From Nitrospira sp. (GTDB taxonomy: Bacteria > Nitrospirota > Nitrospiria > Nitrospirales > Nitrospiraceae), in the NCBI GenBank assembly GCA_016788885.1, contig JAEURX010000052.1, positions 124,001 through 188,000 of the forward strand: a stretch of DNA of 64,000 bases, in the 5' to 3' direction. The notes beneath the pieces were generated by a model that was given only the letters and a program-made list of their open reading frames with translations, searched no databases and was not told the DNA's origin. Positions 6,969 through 60,363 of this stretch are shown here, piece by piece. The number at the start of each line of letters is the position of its first letter. Position 1 is the stretch's first letter. The position numbers and the translations under genes are program-made.

Positions 6969-7895
6969 ATGCGCAACCTTGTCATCATCGGCTCCGGGCC
7001 GGCTGGTCTCACCGCCGCCATCTATGCGGCGCGTGCCAACCTGTCGCCGCTTCTGATCGAAGGCTGGCAATCCGGAGGACAACTGACCACCACGACCGAA
7101 GTAGAAAACTATCCCGGCTTTTCTAAGGGCATCATGGGACCGGAACTCATGAAGGAGATGCGTGGACAAGCCGAACGGTTCGGGACGGAATTCCTCACCG
7201 GCGACGTCTCGGCGATGAATCTCACCGATCGACCATTCCGGTTGACGATCGATGGAGAGCAGACGGTGGAAACCGCAGCCTTGATTCTGGCCACCGGCGC
7301 CTCGGCCATTCAGCTTGGGCTCCCGAATGAGCAACGCCTGACCGGGCACGGAGTCTCGACCTGCGCCACCTGCGACGGCTACTTTTTCCGCGGGCAGGAC
7401 CTGGTGGTCGTCGGCGGCGGCGATAGCGCGGTGGAAGAGGCCACCTTCCTGACAAAATTCGCGCGCACCGTCACCGTCGTGCACCGCCGAGACAAGCTGC
7501 GGGCCTCCAAAATCATGCAAGACCGCGCCATGAAGAATGAAAAGATTTCATTCGCGTGGAATTCTGTCGTTGAAGACATTCTCGGAAAGGATGTGGTCAC
7601 CGGGGTCCGACTCAAGAATATCGTCACCGGTGCCTCCACAGAACTCACTTGTGCCGGCGTCTTCGTCGCCATCGGCCACCGACCCAATACGGATCTGCTG
7701 AAGGGGCAAGTGGCGATGGATGAGAAGGGCTACGTCCTCACCTCGCAGGGAACCGCCACCAGCGTCGCCGGCCTATTCGCCGCCGGCGACGTCCAGGACT
7801 CGAAATATCGCCAGGCCATTACTGCAGCCGGCTCAGGATGCATGGCCGCCATCGACGCCGAACGGTTTCTGGAATCGGTGCTTCATCAACTCTAG
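6969..7895 (+). CDS. trxB: Thioredoxin reductase
   Basis: A protein of 308 aa. It has an N-terminal FAD-binding Rossmann motif (IIGSGPAGLTAAIYAARA, residues 6-23), the redox-active CATC followed by DGYFF near residue 135, an NADPH-binding GGGDSAVEEA around residue 155, and a C-terminal FAD motif GLFAAGDVQDSKYRQ. This is the standard low-molecular-weight bacterial TrxB that passes electrons from NADPH to thioredoxin in the cytoplasm. It follows coaE with a short gap. No thioredoxin gene lies nearby. Confidence 0.96.
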   Translation: MRNLVIIGSGPAGLTAAIYAARANLSPLLIEGWQSGGQLTTTTEVENYPGFSKGIMGPELMKEMRGQAERFGTEFLTGDVSAMNLTDRPFRLTIDGEQTVETAALILATGASAIQLGLPNEQRLTGHGVSTCATCDGYFFRGQDLVVVGGGDSAVEEATFLTKFARTVTVVHRRDKLRASKIMQDRAMKNEKISFAWNSVVEDILGKDVVTGVRLKNIVTGASTELTCAGVFVAIGHRPNTDLLKGQVAMDEKGYVLTSQGTATSVAGLFAAGDVQDSKYRQAITAAGSGCMAAIDAERFLESVLHQL

Positions 7896-7905
7896 GTCTC
7901 CCACC

Positions 7906-8013
7906 GGATGCTCACAATGGTTGTCCAACGAGGCCGAAGACGAAACAAAACCGGAGGCGTACCCTTGCGGTATGTTGAGGATTTTGGTGAGTCGAGAACG
8001 AAGTTAGCAGCCC
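7906..8013. repeat. Dispersed palindromic repeat, copy 1 (right end lost)
   Basis: Begins GGATGCTCACAATGG and is almost identical to copy 2 over the ~75-bp core, from the GAGGCCG block through GGCGTACCCTTGCGGTA to GAGTCGAGAACGAAGTT. The GTACC...GGTA core can form a hairpin. The last ~15 bp of copy 2 (TTTTCAGCATCC end) is missing here, so this copy has decayed at its right terminus. It lies directly after the trxB stop codon. Confidence 0.7.
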
Positions 8014-8063
8014 TTGATGCCGAAGGGTTTTCAAGACCACTTACTATGAATGTAACTTCCCAA

Positions 8064-8183
8064 GGATGCTCAAAATGAGCCTCCAACGAGGCCGCAGACG
8101 AAACAAAACCGGAGGCGTACCCTTGCGGTACGTTGAGGATTTTGGTGAGTCGAGAACGAAGTTGGGGGCCATTTTCAGCATCC
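8064..8183. repeat. Dispersed palindromic repeat, copy 2 (full length, 120 bp)
   Basis: The most intact copy. It is bounded by terminal inverted repeats: GGATGCTCAAAATG at 8064-8077 and CATTTTCAGCATCC at 8170-8183, complementary except at one central position. Inside is the core GGCGTACCCTTGCGGTACGTTGAGG with a GTACC/GGTAC hairpin. It has no coding capacity. It ends 11 bp before the thiI start codon, so it is probably transcribed in the thiI leader. The structure resembles a MITE or REP-type element. Confidence 0.75.
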
Positions 8184-8194
8184 TGTAACCACTT

Positions 8195-9373
8195 ATGCAT
8201 TGCACCATCGTCCACTACCACGAACTCGCCCTCAAAGGCCGCAACCGCGACTTCTTCGAGCAACGGCTCGTCCGCAATCTCCGGCTGGCATTGAAAGATC
8301 TGAAGATTCGACGGATCGAATCGCTGCAGGGGCGCATCCGGGTCACGATTCCCGACTCGGCCTCGCCTGCGCTGGTGATTGAACGTGTCCGACGAACCTG
8401 CGGCGTGTCGAACGTCCTCCTCACCGAGTCGGTGCCGCTGGATCTCCGCACACCGGATCTCACGCTGCTCAAGCAGGTTGCAGAACGGCAACTGGCCGAA
8501 CACACCTTCCAGTCATTCCGGGTGACCGCCAAACGCGCGGACAAACGCCTTCCATTGACGTCGATGGATGTCGAACGCGAAGTCGGCGGGTATCTGTTCG
8601 ATGTCACCGGAAAATCCGTCAAACTGAAACAGCCCGACCTGACGCTCTATATCGAGCTGCTCACGAATGAGGCGCACGTCGCGGCGAGGAAGGTTCAAGG
8701 ACCCGGCGGCATGCCCGTGGGAACGAGCGGAAAGGTCGCCTGCTTGATTTCAGGTGGGATCGATTCCCCTGTCGCCGCCTATCGCATGATGAAACGCGGG
8801 TGCAAGGCGGTGTTCGTCCATTTCTCGGGCCGCCCGCTGGTCAGTCGCGCCTCGGAGGAAAAGGTCCAGGAACTCGTTCAGTTGCTGACCACCTATCAAT
8901 ACGAATCCCGACTTCACATCATTCCGTTCGGTGAGATTCAACGGGAGATTGTCGCCAACGCTCCGGCCCCCTTTCGCGTGGTCTTGTACCGGCGGATCAT
9001 GGTCCGGATTGCGCAGGAACTCGCACGCCGTGAACGATGCTGGGCGCTGGTCACCGGGGATAGTCTCGGCCAGGTCGCGTCGCAGACACCCGAGAATCTG
9101 TCAGTGATCGAGGACGCGGCCGAACTTCCAGTGCTCCGTCCGCTGATTGGCATGGATAAGATTGAAATTACCGAACAGGCGCAACAGATCGGGAGCTTCG
9201 CCACCTCGATCGAGCCGGATCAAGATTGCTGCAAACTCTTTGTTCCGCTCCATCCCAGCACGAAAACCAGACTGGATGACATTCTCCGCGTCGAACGGAG
9301 CCTCGAGATCAGTGCGTTCGTGAAACAGGGCGTGGAAAAGGCCGAACTCTCCACGTTCATCTTTCCTTCGTAA
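8195..9373 (+). CDS. thiI: tRNA 4-thiouridine synthase ThiI (no rhodanese domain)
   Basis: A protein of 392 aa. It has an N-terminal ferredoxin-like/THUMP region (residues 1-165, opening VHYHELALKGRNRDFFEQRL) and a PP-loop adenylation domain with the signature CLISGGIDSPVAAYRMMKRG near residue 180. ThiI activates U8 of tRNA with ATP and inserts sulfur from a cysteine-desulfurase persulfide. The protein ends after the PP-loop domain. The C-terminal rhodanese domain of the E. coli enzyme is absent, as in many bacteria, so a separate sulfur carrier is implied. Its last 17 bp overlap the convergent SRPBCC gene. Confidence 0.93.
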   Translation: MHCTIVHYHELALKGRNRDFFEQRLVRNLRLALKDLKIRRIESLQGRIRVTIPDSASPALVIERVRRTCGVSNVLLTESVPLDLRTPDLTLLKQVAERQLAEHTFQSFRVTAKRADKRLPLTSMDVEREVGGYLFDVTGKSVKLKQPDLTLYIELLTNEAHVAARKVQGPGGMPVGTSGKVACLISGGIDSPVAAYRMMKRGCKAVFVHFSGRPLVSRASEEKVQELVQLLTTYQYESRLHIIPFGEIQREIVANAPAPFRVVLYRRIMVRIAQELARRERCWALVTGDSLGQVASQTPENLSVIEDAAELPVLRPLIGMDKIEITEQAQQIGSFATSIEPDQDCCKLFVPLHPSTKTRLDDILRVERSLEISAFVKQGVEKAELSTFIFPS

Positions 9374-15964: not shown

Positions 15965-16093
15965 CGGCAGGCGGCTCAAACAGGCCGCCCAGCGAGGCCG
16001 CAGCGAGTGAAGACCCGAGGCGTACCCGCTGGGGTACGTTGAGGGTCTGAACGATGCGAGAACAAAGCTGGCAGCCCATTTCAACATCTTGCA
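15965..16093. repeat. Dispersed palindromic repeat, diverged copy 3
   Basis: Shares with copies 1 and 2 the GAGGCCGCAG block, the GAGGCGTACCCGCTGGGGTACGT core (again with a GTACC/GGTAC hairpin), the GCGAGAACAAAGCTGGCAGCCC block and the right end CCATTTCAACATCTTGC (compare CATTTTCAGCATCC). It lies between the sensor kinase and the convergent M48 gene and abuts the M48 stop codon. Confidence 0.65.
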
Positions 16094-16960
16094 CTAGATG
16101 CGTTTGGTCATGCGAGCAAACCGCTCCTGCAACAGGACGCCGGTCGCCGCGAGATGCTTACCCTGTATCGTTTTTTGTACTGCCTCGATACGCGCTGAAA
16201 AATTCGGATGGGTTTTAAACAAAGCTCGGTCGTCTCCCTTGAGGTCCCGTAAGCGCGTCAACAAGCCTACGTAGGCCTCCGCATCGTAGCCGACTCGCGT
16301 CGTGAACACTTCGCCGATGGTATCGGCCTCCATCTCCTTCCCCTGGTCCAGTCCTTCGTCGAGGAGCTTCTTGACGGCGCCGTCGATCACCGTCTTGAAA
16401 GCTGTCGGATTGCTCGTCGCATACGACAGGCCGGCTTCGGTGACACCGGCCAGGCGTTTGCTGCGCTGGATGACATCGAGAATATGCTTTTGGCTCACAT
16501 GGGCGATTTCATGTCCCAACACCGCAGCCAATTCCGCTTCGTTCCGCACCTGCTTGAGGAGCCCACGCGTCACGAAGATGTAGCCGGCCGGAGCGGCAAA
16601 GGCATTGATGGAGTCATGTTCCAGAATCGCCACGCGGTAGGGGATGTCCGGCCGATCCGAGGTGTTGGCCACAGCCCTTGCTACGAGGTTCACATACCGA
16701 ACCAATTCGGGCTGGTCGACGACACCGCCATAGCGGGCCACCACCTGCAACGCCATCGCCTGCCCGATCGACGATTCTTCCTCATAGCCGATGGGAAACA
16801 GACTGCCGACCACATTGCCGACCCCATGAATGGCCCCTGCCAGCCGCGGGTTCCCTGATTGCCGTGCGATATCTTCGCCGGCGCGTTGCACTTCCGCACA
16901 GCCGGCCACGGTGAGGGACAGCGCGAGCAGGTTCGCTGCTAGGACGTGATTATTTCGCAT
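16094..16960 (-). CDS. M48-family lipoprotein metalloprotease
   Basis: A protein of 288 aa. I chose the ATG at 16960, because the in-frame TTG at 16969 is too close to the GGAGGGAGGA ribosome-binding site. The signal peptide ends in a lipobox (LTVAGC near residue 22), so this is a lipoprotein. The zinc motif HEIAH lies in ELAAVLGHEIAHVSQKH, with the third ligand probably in GKEMEADTIG. It resembles BepA/LoiP-type periplasmic proteases that handle misfolded outer-membrane proteins. It overlaps the upstream SH3-domain gene by 11 bp. Confidence 0.88.
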   Translation of the reverse strand: MRNNHVLAANLLALSLTVAGCAEVQRAGEDIARQSGNPRLAGAIHGVGNVVGSLFPIGYEEESSIGQAMALQVVARYGGVVDQPELVRYVNLVARAVANTSDRPDIPYRVAILEHDSINAFAAPAGYIFVTRGLLKQVRNEAELAAVLGHEIAHVSQKHILDVIQRSKRLAGVTEAGLSYATSNPTAFKTVIDGAVKKLLDEGLDQGKEMEADTIGEVFTTRVGYDAEAYVGLLTRLRDLKGDDRALFKTHPNFSARIEAVQKTIQGKHLAATGVLLQERFARMTKRI

Positions 16961-58905: not shown

Positions 58906-59259
58906 AGGTACTCACGCTGTCGGCTGACAGCCTTCAGCGATCAGCATATCAAGAGGTTGCAGGCTTCGGCTTAGGTGATCGGATGGAATATACCGGAAGG
59001 AAGGGGGAAGGCACCAGCCCTTTCACAGGCAGGCCCGCACGTAGAACCGCTGACACCCGATGCTTATGCTTGCAGGATCGTCAACAGCGTCTTCCGGCAA
59101 GGCCGCAGCGAAGCGCACGGTGCGAGGTATAACGAGCGCCACGTGTGTGCGCGCCCGCGAGGCGGTGAGCGGGCAGTGTCTTCACCAACATTCCCGCGTC
59201 AATACGGTACGCCCCTGATCGCCGCGAGAACGCCGGCGGCGGCCTTTCTCAACAGCTTG
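58906..59259. other. 354-bp ileS-nadA intergenic region
   Basis: It holds no convincing gene. The right half (about 59074-59262) carries a repeat-family copy (separate entry). The left part contains the short ileS-leader hairpin at 58916-58931 and, on the minus strand, no obvious -10/-35 pair for ileS. The only open frames here are short and start within repeat sequence. Confidence 0.5.
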
Positions 59260-59262
59260 CTA
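59074..59262. repeat. Dispersed palindromic repeat, interrupted copy 4
   Basis: The left part (CAGGATCGTCAACAGCGTC then GGCAAGGCCGCAGCGA and GTGCGAGGTA) resembles the left half of the ~120-bp family. The right part (GATCGCCGCGAGAACGCCGG and CCTTTCTCAACAGC) resembles the right half. About 70 bp of unrelated or diverged sequence stands between, replacing the GTACC core. The end overlaps the nadA stop codon. Membership is likely but weaker than for the other copies. Confidence 0.4.
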
Positions 59263-60363
59263 GCTCAGCGCCATCATGCGATCGAGCGCCACCTTCGCCC
59301 ACTGCTTTTCGTCCGCAGGCACCGTGATATGGTTCACCACATGGCCGTCGACCAGATTCTCCAGCGCCCAGCAGAGGTGCGGGGCGTCGATCCGGTACAT
59401 CGTGGCGCACTGACAGACTGTGGACGACAGGAAAAACACCTTCTTGTCTGTCTGTTCATGTTTTAGGCGGTTGACCAGGTTCAGTTCTGTTCCGACGGCC
59501 CAGGTGGTTCCTGCCGGAGCAGCCGTGATCGTCCGGATGATGTACTCGGTCGAGCCCACGAGGTCGGCCTTGTTCACCACATCCTCATGGCATTCGGGGT
59601 GCACGATCACCTTCACATCGGGATGCTGCTTGCGGAAATAGTCGATATGGGACGGCTGAAACATCTGGTGCACGCTGCAGTGCCCCTTCCACAGGATCAG
59701 CTTGGCTCGCTGGATCGCCTCCACAGAATTACCGCCCCGCGGCATATACGGATCCCAGACAATCATCTGCTCGCGGGGAATGCCCATCTTATTTGCCGTG
59801 TTCCGGCCCAGGTGTTCATCGGGGAAAAACAGAATCTTCTCGCGGCGCGCCCAGCTCCATTCGATGACTTTCCGTGCGTTCGATGACGTGCAGGTGAGTC
59901 CGCCATGTTCGCCGCAGAAGGCCTTCAAGATCGCCGCGGAGTTCACGTAGACCGCCGGCATCACCGTTTCCTCGACTGGCACGACCCGTCCAAGCGCATC
60001 CCAGCACTGCTCCACCTGTTCGATCGCCGCCATATCGGCCATGGAGCAACCGGCCGCCATGTCCGGAAGAATAACCGTTTGATTGGAACGGCTCAGCACG
60101 TCAGCCGTTTCCGCCATGAAATGCACGCCGCAAAACACCACATAGGGTCGGTCTGATCGCTGCTCGGCGACCTGCGCCAGGATCAGGGAGTCGCCTCGAA
60201 AATCCGCATGTTGAATCACTTCATCGCGCTGATAATTATGGCCGAGAATCATCACCCGGTCGCCGAGCGACCGTTTGGCCGCACGGGTCCGTTCGAAGAG
60301 TTCTTCGGCAGAGAGAGCCTGATAATCGGTAATGGGACGGGGAAGCGTGGCGACCGTTTTCAC
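59260..60363 (-). CDS. nadA: Quinolinate synthase
   Basis: A protein of 367 aa with a GTG start at 60363. It has GHNYQRDEVIQHADFRGDSL, VVFCGVHFMAETADVLS (Fe-S cysteine), PDMAAGCSMADMAAIEQVEQ, TCTSSNARKV and HPECHEDVV, with the last Fe-S ligand probably in YRIDAPHLCWALENLV. It condenses iminoaspartate with dihydroxyacetone phosphate to quinolinate, using a [4Fe-4S] cluster, in NAD synthesis. nadD is in the window, nadB and nadC are not. Confidence 0.95.
   Translation of the reverse strand: MKTVATLPRPITDYQALSAEELFERTRAAKRSLGDRVMILGHNYQRDEVIQHADFRGDSLILAQVAEQRSDRPYVVFCGVHFMAETADVLSRSNQTVILPDMAAGCSMADMAAIEQVEQCWDALGRVVPVEETVMPAVYVNSAAILKAFCGEHGGLTCTSSNARKVIEWSWARREKILFFPDEHLGRNTANKMGIPREQMIVWDPYMPRGGNSVEAIQRAKLILWKGHCSVHQMFQPSHIDYFRKQHPDVKVIVHPECHEDVVNKADLVGSTEYIIRTITAAPAGTTWAVGTELNLVNRLKHEQTDKKVFFLSSTVCQCATMYRIDAPHLCWALENLVDGHVVNHITVPADEKQWAKVALDRMMALS

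Follow-up and report, generated by a model that had tools for sequence, protein, structure and literature searches.

A palindromic repeat between trxB and thiI of Nitrospira is very probably the hairpin end of an IS5-type MITE

The window analyzed here, a 64,000-nucleotide stretch of a Nitrospira genome, contains a palindromic repeat in the gap between trxB, the thioredoxin-disulfide reductase gene (6969..7895, plus strand; TIGR01292, 415.9 bits), and thiI, the tRNA 4-thiouridine synthase gene (8195..9373, plus strand; TIGR00342, 358 bits); both genes score above the cut-offs of their models. The repeat copy at 8064-8183 is followed after 11 nt by the start of thiI. Its ends are GGATGCTCAAAATG and CATTTTCAGCATCC, as the initial annotation had stated, and it folds as a long hairpin that none of 200 shuffled sequences equalled, either as DNA (z = -4.2) or as RNA (z = -6.4). 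The paired arms reach beyond the annotated limits, to CA...TG. Including these arm bases, the best-preserved copy of the window occupies 8062..8185 on the plus strand (133.8 bits with covariance model R1), and it lacks the spacer and outer end that are described below.

Three further plus-strand copies that had been proposed at 7906, ~15970, and ~59075 are real according to the covariance model. A decayed tandem copy at 7906..8021 (82.9 bits) lies 10 nt past the stop codon of the upstream gene, and its fold is at the level of shuffled sequences (z = -0.2). An older copy at 15970..16089 (99.3 bits) has its right end 4 nt from the stop of a minus-strand gene ending at 16094. The copy at 59075..59257 is a distant 183-bp variant with an enlarged tip (31.7 bits, E 7e-5), which is followed by TGCTAG; the minus-strand gene 59260-60363 has its stop 2 nt away. 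Mechanical open frames cross the window copies (for example, 7892-8503 on the minus strand). No gene called by codon usage overlaps any of the four, in agreement with the earlier view that they are intergenic and have no coding capacity.

A genome-wide search found, instead of a few copies without conserved ends, 43 BLAST matches in the 3.92-Mb genome of the window and 81 matches with a covariance model built from 39 copies, with conserved ends and flanks. BLAST matches occur in all 29 genomes of the genus, and covariance-model matches in 125 of 146 sampled genomes of the class. In six genus genomes that were searched one at a time or in small groups, model matches numbered 55 to 119 each, including 119 in G001 and 72 in G015, and a pattern scan of the species genomes gave at least 119 stretches. 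Among the matches listed, all titles refer to Nitrospira or other Nitrospirota except for three contigs from one bin labelled Nitrosospira and two from one labelled Deltaproteobacteria, which may be mislabelled. G004 is the only genus genome with just two matches and has a truncated remnant between trxB and thiI; this lineage has apparently lost or escaped the element. Carriage by plasmids or phages was dismissed, as neither collection gave a match at the sensitivity used.

In 22 of 28 genus genomes, the element occupies the trxB-thiI gap, frequently in two pieces arranged in tandem. In G005, G011, G009, G027, and G015 (loci L042, L047, L056, L058, and L060), the element is replaced. The replacing insert is ~480-490 bp long and contains a gene for a 120-residue four-helix-bundle protein (TIGR02436, 132 bits for the L056 copy) that is weakly similar to the DGR protein Avd. 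Repeats of the CGTGAAACGTAAAACGTGAAAGG type border it, those on the other side being in inverted orientation, and it looks like a second small mobile module in the same niche. At L044, L046, L049, L061, L062, and L068, the gap carries a second, related type of element, in which the loop motifs are the same (GCTCAAAA...CAAGGCCGCAG...GAGAACGC...TTTTCAGC) and the stems differ; the profile made for the first type gives it only 34-56 bits.

Comparison of genomes G020 and G021, which share 91.4% identity across aligned blocks totalling 340 kb, gave four clean pairs of empty and filled sites with duplicated CTAG, CTAG, CTAG, and CTAA. In the first pair, an empty CTAG in G021 corresponds to ~200 bp and a second CTAG in G020; in the second, an empty CTAG in G020 corresponds to ~140 bp and a second CTAG in G021. 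The CTAG and CTAA of the third and fourth pairs are empty in G020, and ~200-bp units fill both in G021. Six further sites without a clean empty/filled pair were not counted, and two sites are filled in both genomes. In the genus genome G001, we found nine near-identical copies in two subfamilies, which had been picked for their nearly equal model scores. Members of one subfamily share 97.6-100% identity over ~208 bp and no relatedness outside, whereas between the subfamilies the hairpin alone is alike (93-95%). All nine are flanked by identical YTAR tetranucleotides. The element thus inserts with a 4-bp YTAR duplication and has spread recently in one genome.

The extent of the mobile unit was examined in 147 copies, of which 41 came from the genome of the window, 11 from G020 and G021, and 95 from named contigs. 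This set was limited to scores of at least 60 bits, below which 10 of 51 copies from the own genome fell, and was freed of duplicates and of copies within 60 bases of a locus end. From one of the searches, matches were entered down to 68.5 bits, excluding two cut by locus ends and one partial match. On the right flank, the hairpin is followed by TG-YTA and then often a purine (YTA in 77/147 and YTAR in 56/147 copies). On the left flank, YTAR occurs in only 1/147; a TCCCGCA stretch runs on outwards instead. An outer end of the form YTAR-CAGG.TG..GAAAAA lies 74-78 bp upstream in 12/147 copies at a match of at least 13/16, compared with 0/147 in each of two control windows. Most of the 147 copies have no recognizable outer end.

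Facing ends were sought in 2.58 Mb of DNA; in 27 pairs at least three of four flank bases are equal, and many of these pairs span 198-202 bp. In a larger DNA set, 28 distinct complete units were collected, all of 198-202 bp, although the filter allowed 185-212 bp; three of 11 other regions fetched from G001 contributed units. The 4-bp flanks are identical in 21 of the 28 units (YTAR in 19 of these) and unequal in 7. The genome of the window contributes one complete unit (L098), with CTAG on both sides. The complete unit consists of a 16-bp end, CAGGCTGCGGAAAAAC, a poorly conserved spacer of ~60 bp, and a 124-bp palindrome whose outer arm forms the other end of the unit. It can be written as YTAR / CAGG(C,T,A)TGC(G,T)GAAAAAC / ~60-bp spacer of free sequence / 124-bp hairpin ending TTTTTC(A,C)GCATCCTG / the same YTAR, where the duplicated YTAR is mostly CTAG, CTAA, or TTAG. 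Two units have matching flanks outside this pattern, L228 (CGAA/CGAA) and L365 (CTAC/CTAC); either the target rule has exceptions or these flanks have changed by mutation.

The initial annotation had taken the repeat as a unit of ~120 bp with both arms as ends. Its TTTTCAGCATCCTG end is indeed a true transposon end, but the other arm is internal, and the complete unit is asymmetric and ~200 bp long, with its second true end 74-78 bp further out. Because the inner arm differs by one base from the true end (GCTCAAAA against GCTGAAAA, and GCGC against GCGG in another subfamily), the sequences suggest that it may be a mismatched pseudo-end that is kept inactive. The four window copies are old, immobile relics whose spacer and outer end have been lost.

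Full-size insertion sequences with related ends are present in the genus. A 1371-bp element with CTAA flanks in G020 (L170) encodes a DUF772/DDE transposase whose scores lie a little under cut-off with both the IS1182 model (233.6 against 270 bits) and the IS5 model (136 against 140 bits). Its relatives L331 (in G001), L332, and L349 are 1314-1317 bp long, are flanked by TTAG or CTAG, and have 16-bp ends identical to the outer end of the repeat unit. L349 encodes an uninterrupted transposase of 363 residues that scores 282.5 bits with the NCBIfam IS5 model NF033581 (cut-off 140), and the L332 transposase scores 269.2 bits with the same model. In L331, which resides in the same genome as the nine recent copies, one in-frame TGA lies within the transposase match. 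The IS5/IS1182-like elements of the genus (L325, L326, L327, and L329; L331, L332, and L349; L335) have at least three types of ends, GTTGACAAAC, GCGGAAAAAC, and GCTGAAAAA, and the same three types are found in the repeat units. The query transposase of IS5 type had no match in the 75-contig draft genome of the window, in keeping with the mostly old copies of that genome.

We therefore consider it very probable that Nitrospira and its class carry a non-autonomous MITE of IS5 type and that the repeat is its hairpin end. An assignment to MITE-type elements in several states of decay had been offered from the window copies, and it agrees with the duplicated targets, the empty sites, the recent and nearly identical copies of a related genome, and the full-size insertion sequences with the same ends. 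IS5-family insertion sequences of the same genus are the likely mobilizers, judging from the shared ends and flanks. A predicted IS5-family DDE transposase, acting in trans, would cut at two CAGG..GAAAAA ends and insert the unit into YTAR. YTAR is a target of IS5 elements; a search of the open-access literature for papers on this found none. The MITE and the insertion sequences have only their ends in common, and the hairpin has no counterpart in the latter. The idea that the palindrome itself is the end of an autonomous insertion sequence was rejected, because no homology extends past short matches at chance level.

The IS5-family elements matching NF033581 (L349 and L332) thus resemble the MITE in its outer end and YTAR flanks, but they are 1.3 kb long, encode a transposase, and have no hairpin end. 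A close described analogue is MITEPsy1 of Pseudomonas syringae, a 100-nt element with 18-nt ends related to ISPsy2 of the IS5 family (PMC3189936). It is likewise gene-less, has ends containing TGAAAAAG that resemble IS5-family ends, and duplicates CTAG or YTAA on insertion (PMC3189936). The Nitrospira unit is longer (~200 bp), contains a spacer and a covarying hairpin of 124 bp, and differs in its outermost bases (CAGGCT against GGAAGG). The L170 transposase resembles that of the IS1182 family, although below cut-off. IS1272 of that family is described as targeting and replacing stem-loops without duplication (PMC5678879), whereas the Nitrospira element duplicates a 4-bp site and carries the palindrome inside. 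We found no paper describing a Nitrospira MITE in the open-access literature, and our verdict is an IS5-type MITE family with a conserved hairpin, undescribed in the literature searched. It accounts for a large number of repeats between the genes of a nitrite-oxidizing lineage of ecological importance.

Many copies abut stop codons, which the initial annotation had not noted, and duplication of a YTAR target would turn such codons into safe places to land. Because YTAR contains TAG or TAA and the site is duplicated, an insertion at a stop codon would re-create the stop and leave the reading frame intact, and such insertions would survive. The right end lies exactly 2 nt from the called stop of the opposing gene in 58/147 copies and within 0-5 nt in 80/147, while a stop lies 74-80 nt from the other side in 8/147; these counts carry along the errors of a simple codon-usage gene caller. 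Of 307 non-coding YTAR sites in a sample from the own genome, 83 are stops, so that stop sites look over-represented among the copies. Among the 28 intact units, the stop is at the hairpin end in eight and at the spacer end in five; the nine recent G001 copies have two and three, respectively. The ratio of 58:8 in the mainly decayed copies differs from that of 8:5 in the intact units (Fisher p 0.034, post hoc and with overlapping sets). Insertions with the hairpin at the stop could be preferentially kept, and decay of the spacer hides the other orientation class.

The hairpin is strongly covarying. In 116 copies, aligned by fitting to the covariance model, standard pairs fill 94.4% of pair cells, and both sides change in 26 of 36 pairs. 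The covariation score of 0.322 exceeds those of shuffles (0.126) and of slid pairings (no higher than 0.050). When 39 copies were aligned independently with MAFFT, 25 of 36 pairs changed on both sides. The internal loops are nearly fixed, namely TCAAAA/TTTTCA with a C.C mismatch and AAGGCCGCAG/GAGAACG, and so are two G.T pairs beside CGTAC/GTACG. Among 25 complete units, the mean identity is 77% for the hairpins and 37% for the spacers (20% for shuffled spacers), with constant unit length; the hairpin sequence is conserved while that of the spacer drifts. The plus strand gives the better RNA fold in 124/137 copies, a hint that one strand matters. At deviating pairs, G.T outnumbers A.C by 168:64 on the plus-strand fold, where the choice of columns favors G.T; the ratio is 63:42 on 17 pairs chosen from both strands and is suggestive only.

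Such a covarying fold is not expected for an IS5-type MITE moved by a DDE transposase, and a simple element of this kind with an RNA-like fold and fixed internal loops across a bacterial class is a puzzle. It is possible, although we hold this only tentatively, that the hairpin works as a single-stranded structure, in replication-exposed DNA or in RNA, which the element needs to spread. If so, the mobility of a DDE-type MITE would depend on a folded strand recognized by a protein and on a fixed-length spacer of free sequence, as a hybrid between IS5-type and REP-type mobility.

A rather unlikely alternative is that the copies arose by MITE spread but host selection maintains the hairpin, which would act, from its position just past the stop codon, on the mRNA of the gene, through 3' end stability or ribosome stalling as reported for REPs near stops in E. 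coli. REPs within 15 nt of stops stall ribosomes (PMC12306157). The excess of hairpin ends 2 nt from opposing stops (58/147 against 8 from the other side), its contrast with the 8 against 5 of intact units under the same post hoc test on overlapping sets (Fisher p 0.034), and the retention of the element at trxB-thiI in 22/28 genus genomes are consistent with this. The excess, however, is open to the loss of the opposite orientation class by spacer decay, and the trxB-thiI copy has been replaced in five genomes and reduced to a truncated remnant in one. In the majority class, moreover, the strand that folds better is antisense to the adjoining gene, and this speaks against a simple role in mRNA.

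Alternatively, the covariation could be unselected. Template switching, a mutational process known from imperfect palindromes, copies one arm onto the other, and the arms would vary together as observed. It would also erase fixed mismatches, yet almost every aligned copy retains the C.C of TCAAAA/TTTTCA, the AAGGCCGCAG/GAGAACG loop, and the G.T pairs next to CGTAC/GTACG, so we regard this origin of the covariation as improbable.

Movement as single-stranded DNA by an HUH (Y1) transposase, in the manner of REP/BIME elements, is very improbable. The initial annotation had named a REP-type element with an IS200/IS605-like TnpA as one of its options. REPs are 21-65 nt hairpins with GTAG or GTGG (PMC6006769), and they share with the present repeat the many intergenic hairpins, a tetranucleotide at the foot, and, in some cases, proximity to stop codons (PMC6006769, PMC12306157). 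The Nitrospira hairpin is larger, at 124 bp, has a TG-YTA(R) foot, and is accompanied by a second end 74-78 bp away. ERIC elements of enterobacteria are likewise intergenic imperfect palindromes of similar size, in different hosts. The YTAR 5' of the hairpin at its foot, the covarying hairpin with one strand better as RNA in those 124/137 copies, and Y1 genes in 103/146 class genomes would fit movement by a Y1 enzyme. PF01797, however, had no match in the genome of the window, while the control was positive in 6/14 genomes; the copy-rich G015, with its 72 model matches, had no Y1 match either, and of 30 Y1 loci fetched from the class just two have a copy close by, one of them weak. The two DDE-like ends and duplicated YTAR of the mobile unit also speak against it.

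A strand bias opposite to the replication fork, counted from an origin taken as dnaA, would likewise suit a Y1 enzyme. It is clear in G020 (39/51, of 55 matches) and G021 (41/58, of 62 matches), where the weakest matches were left out. Among the matches listed, it is not significant in G001 (26/43, of 119 matches) and is reversed in G015 (5/24, of 72 matches). A link between transposases, the beta clamp, and orientation has reportedly been described; targeting of a replication strand was not used as support.

Integron cassettes were considered because of clusters on contigs C10, C34, and C40 and the adjacency to stop codons. Integron attC sites are defined by AAC/GTT core boxes, which are not conserved here (AAC, AGC, GGC, or CAC across copies); moreover, the copies lie between housekeeping genes and their right flank is the duplicated YTAR, and the idea was dropped. 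A search with PF00589 gave five matches, four of them above cut-off. A known RNA family was likewise set aside, with no Rfam match in the window at gathering thresholds and none at E<=1 for 7880-8200.

Two other inserts were noted. At 361.2-361.8 kb of G020, where a CTAG is filled by the hairpin element in G021, a different insert is present, which ends in another long palindrome (GGGCCCTATGGCCTCC ... GGAGGCTATAGGGCC) directly before CTAG. At L142:9998-10072, a 75-bp unit with CTAG on both sides has the same kind of ends but no hairpin, as a smaller derivative; it is apparently present in G020 too, where the alignment runs through.
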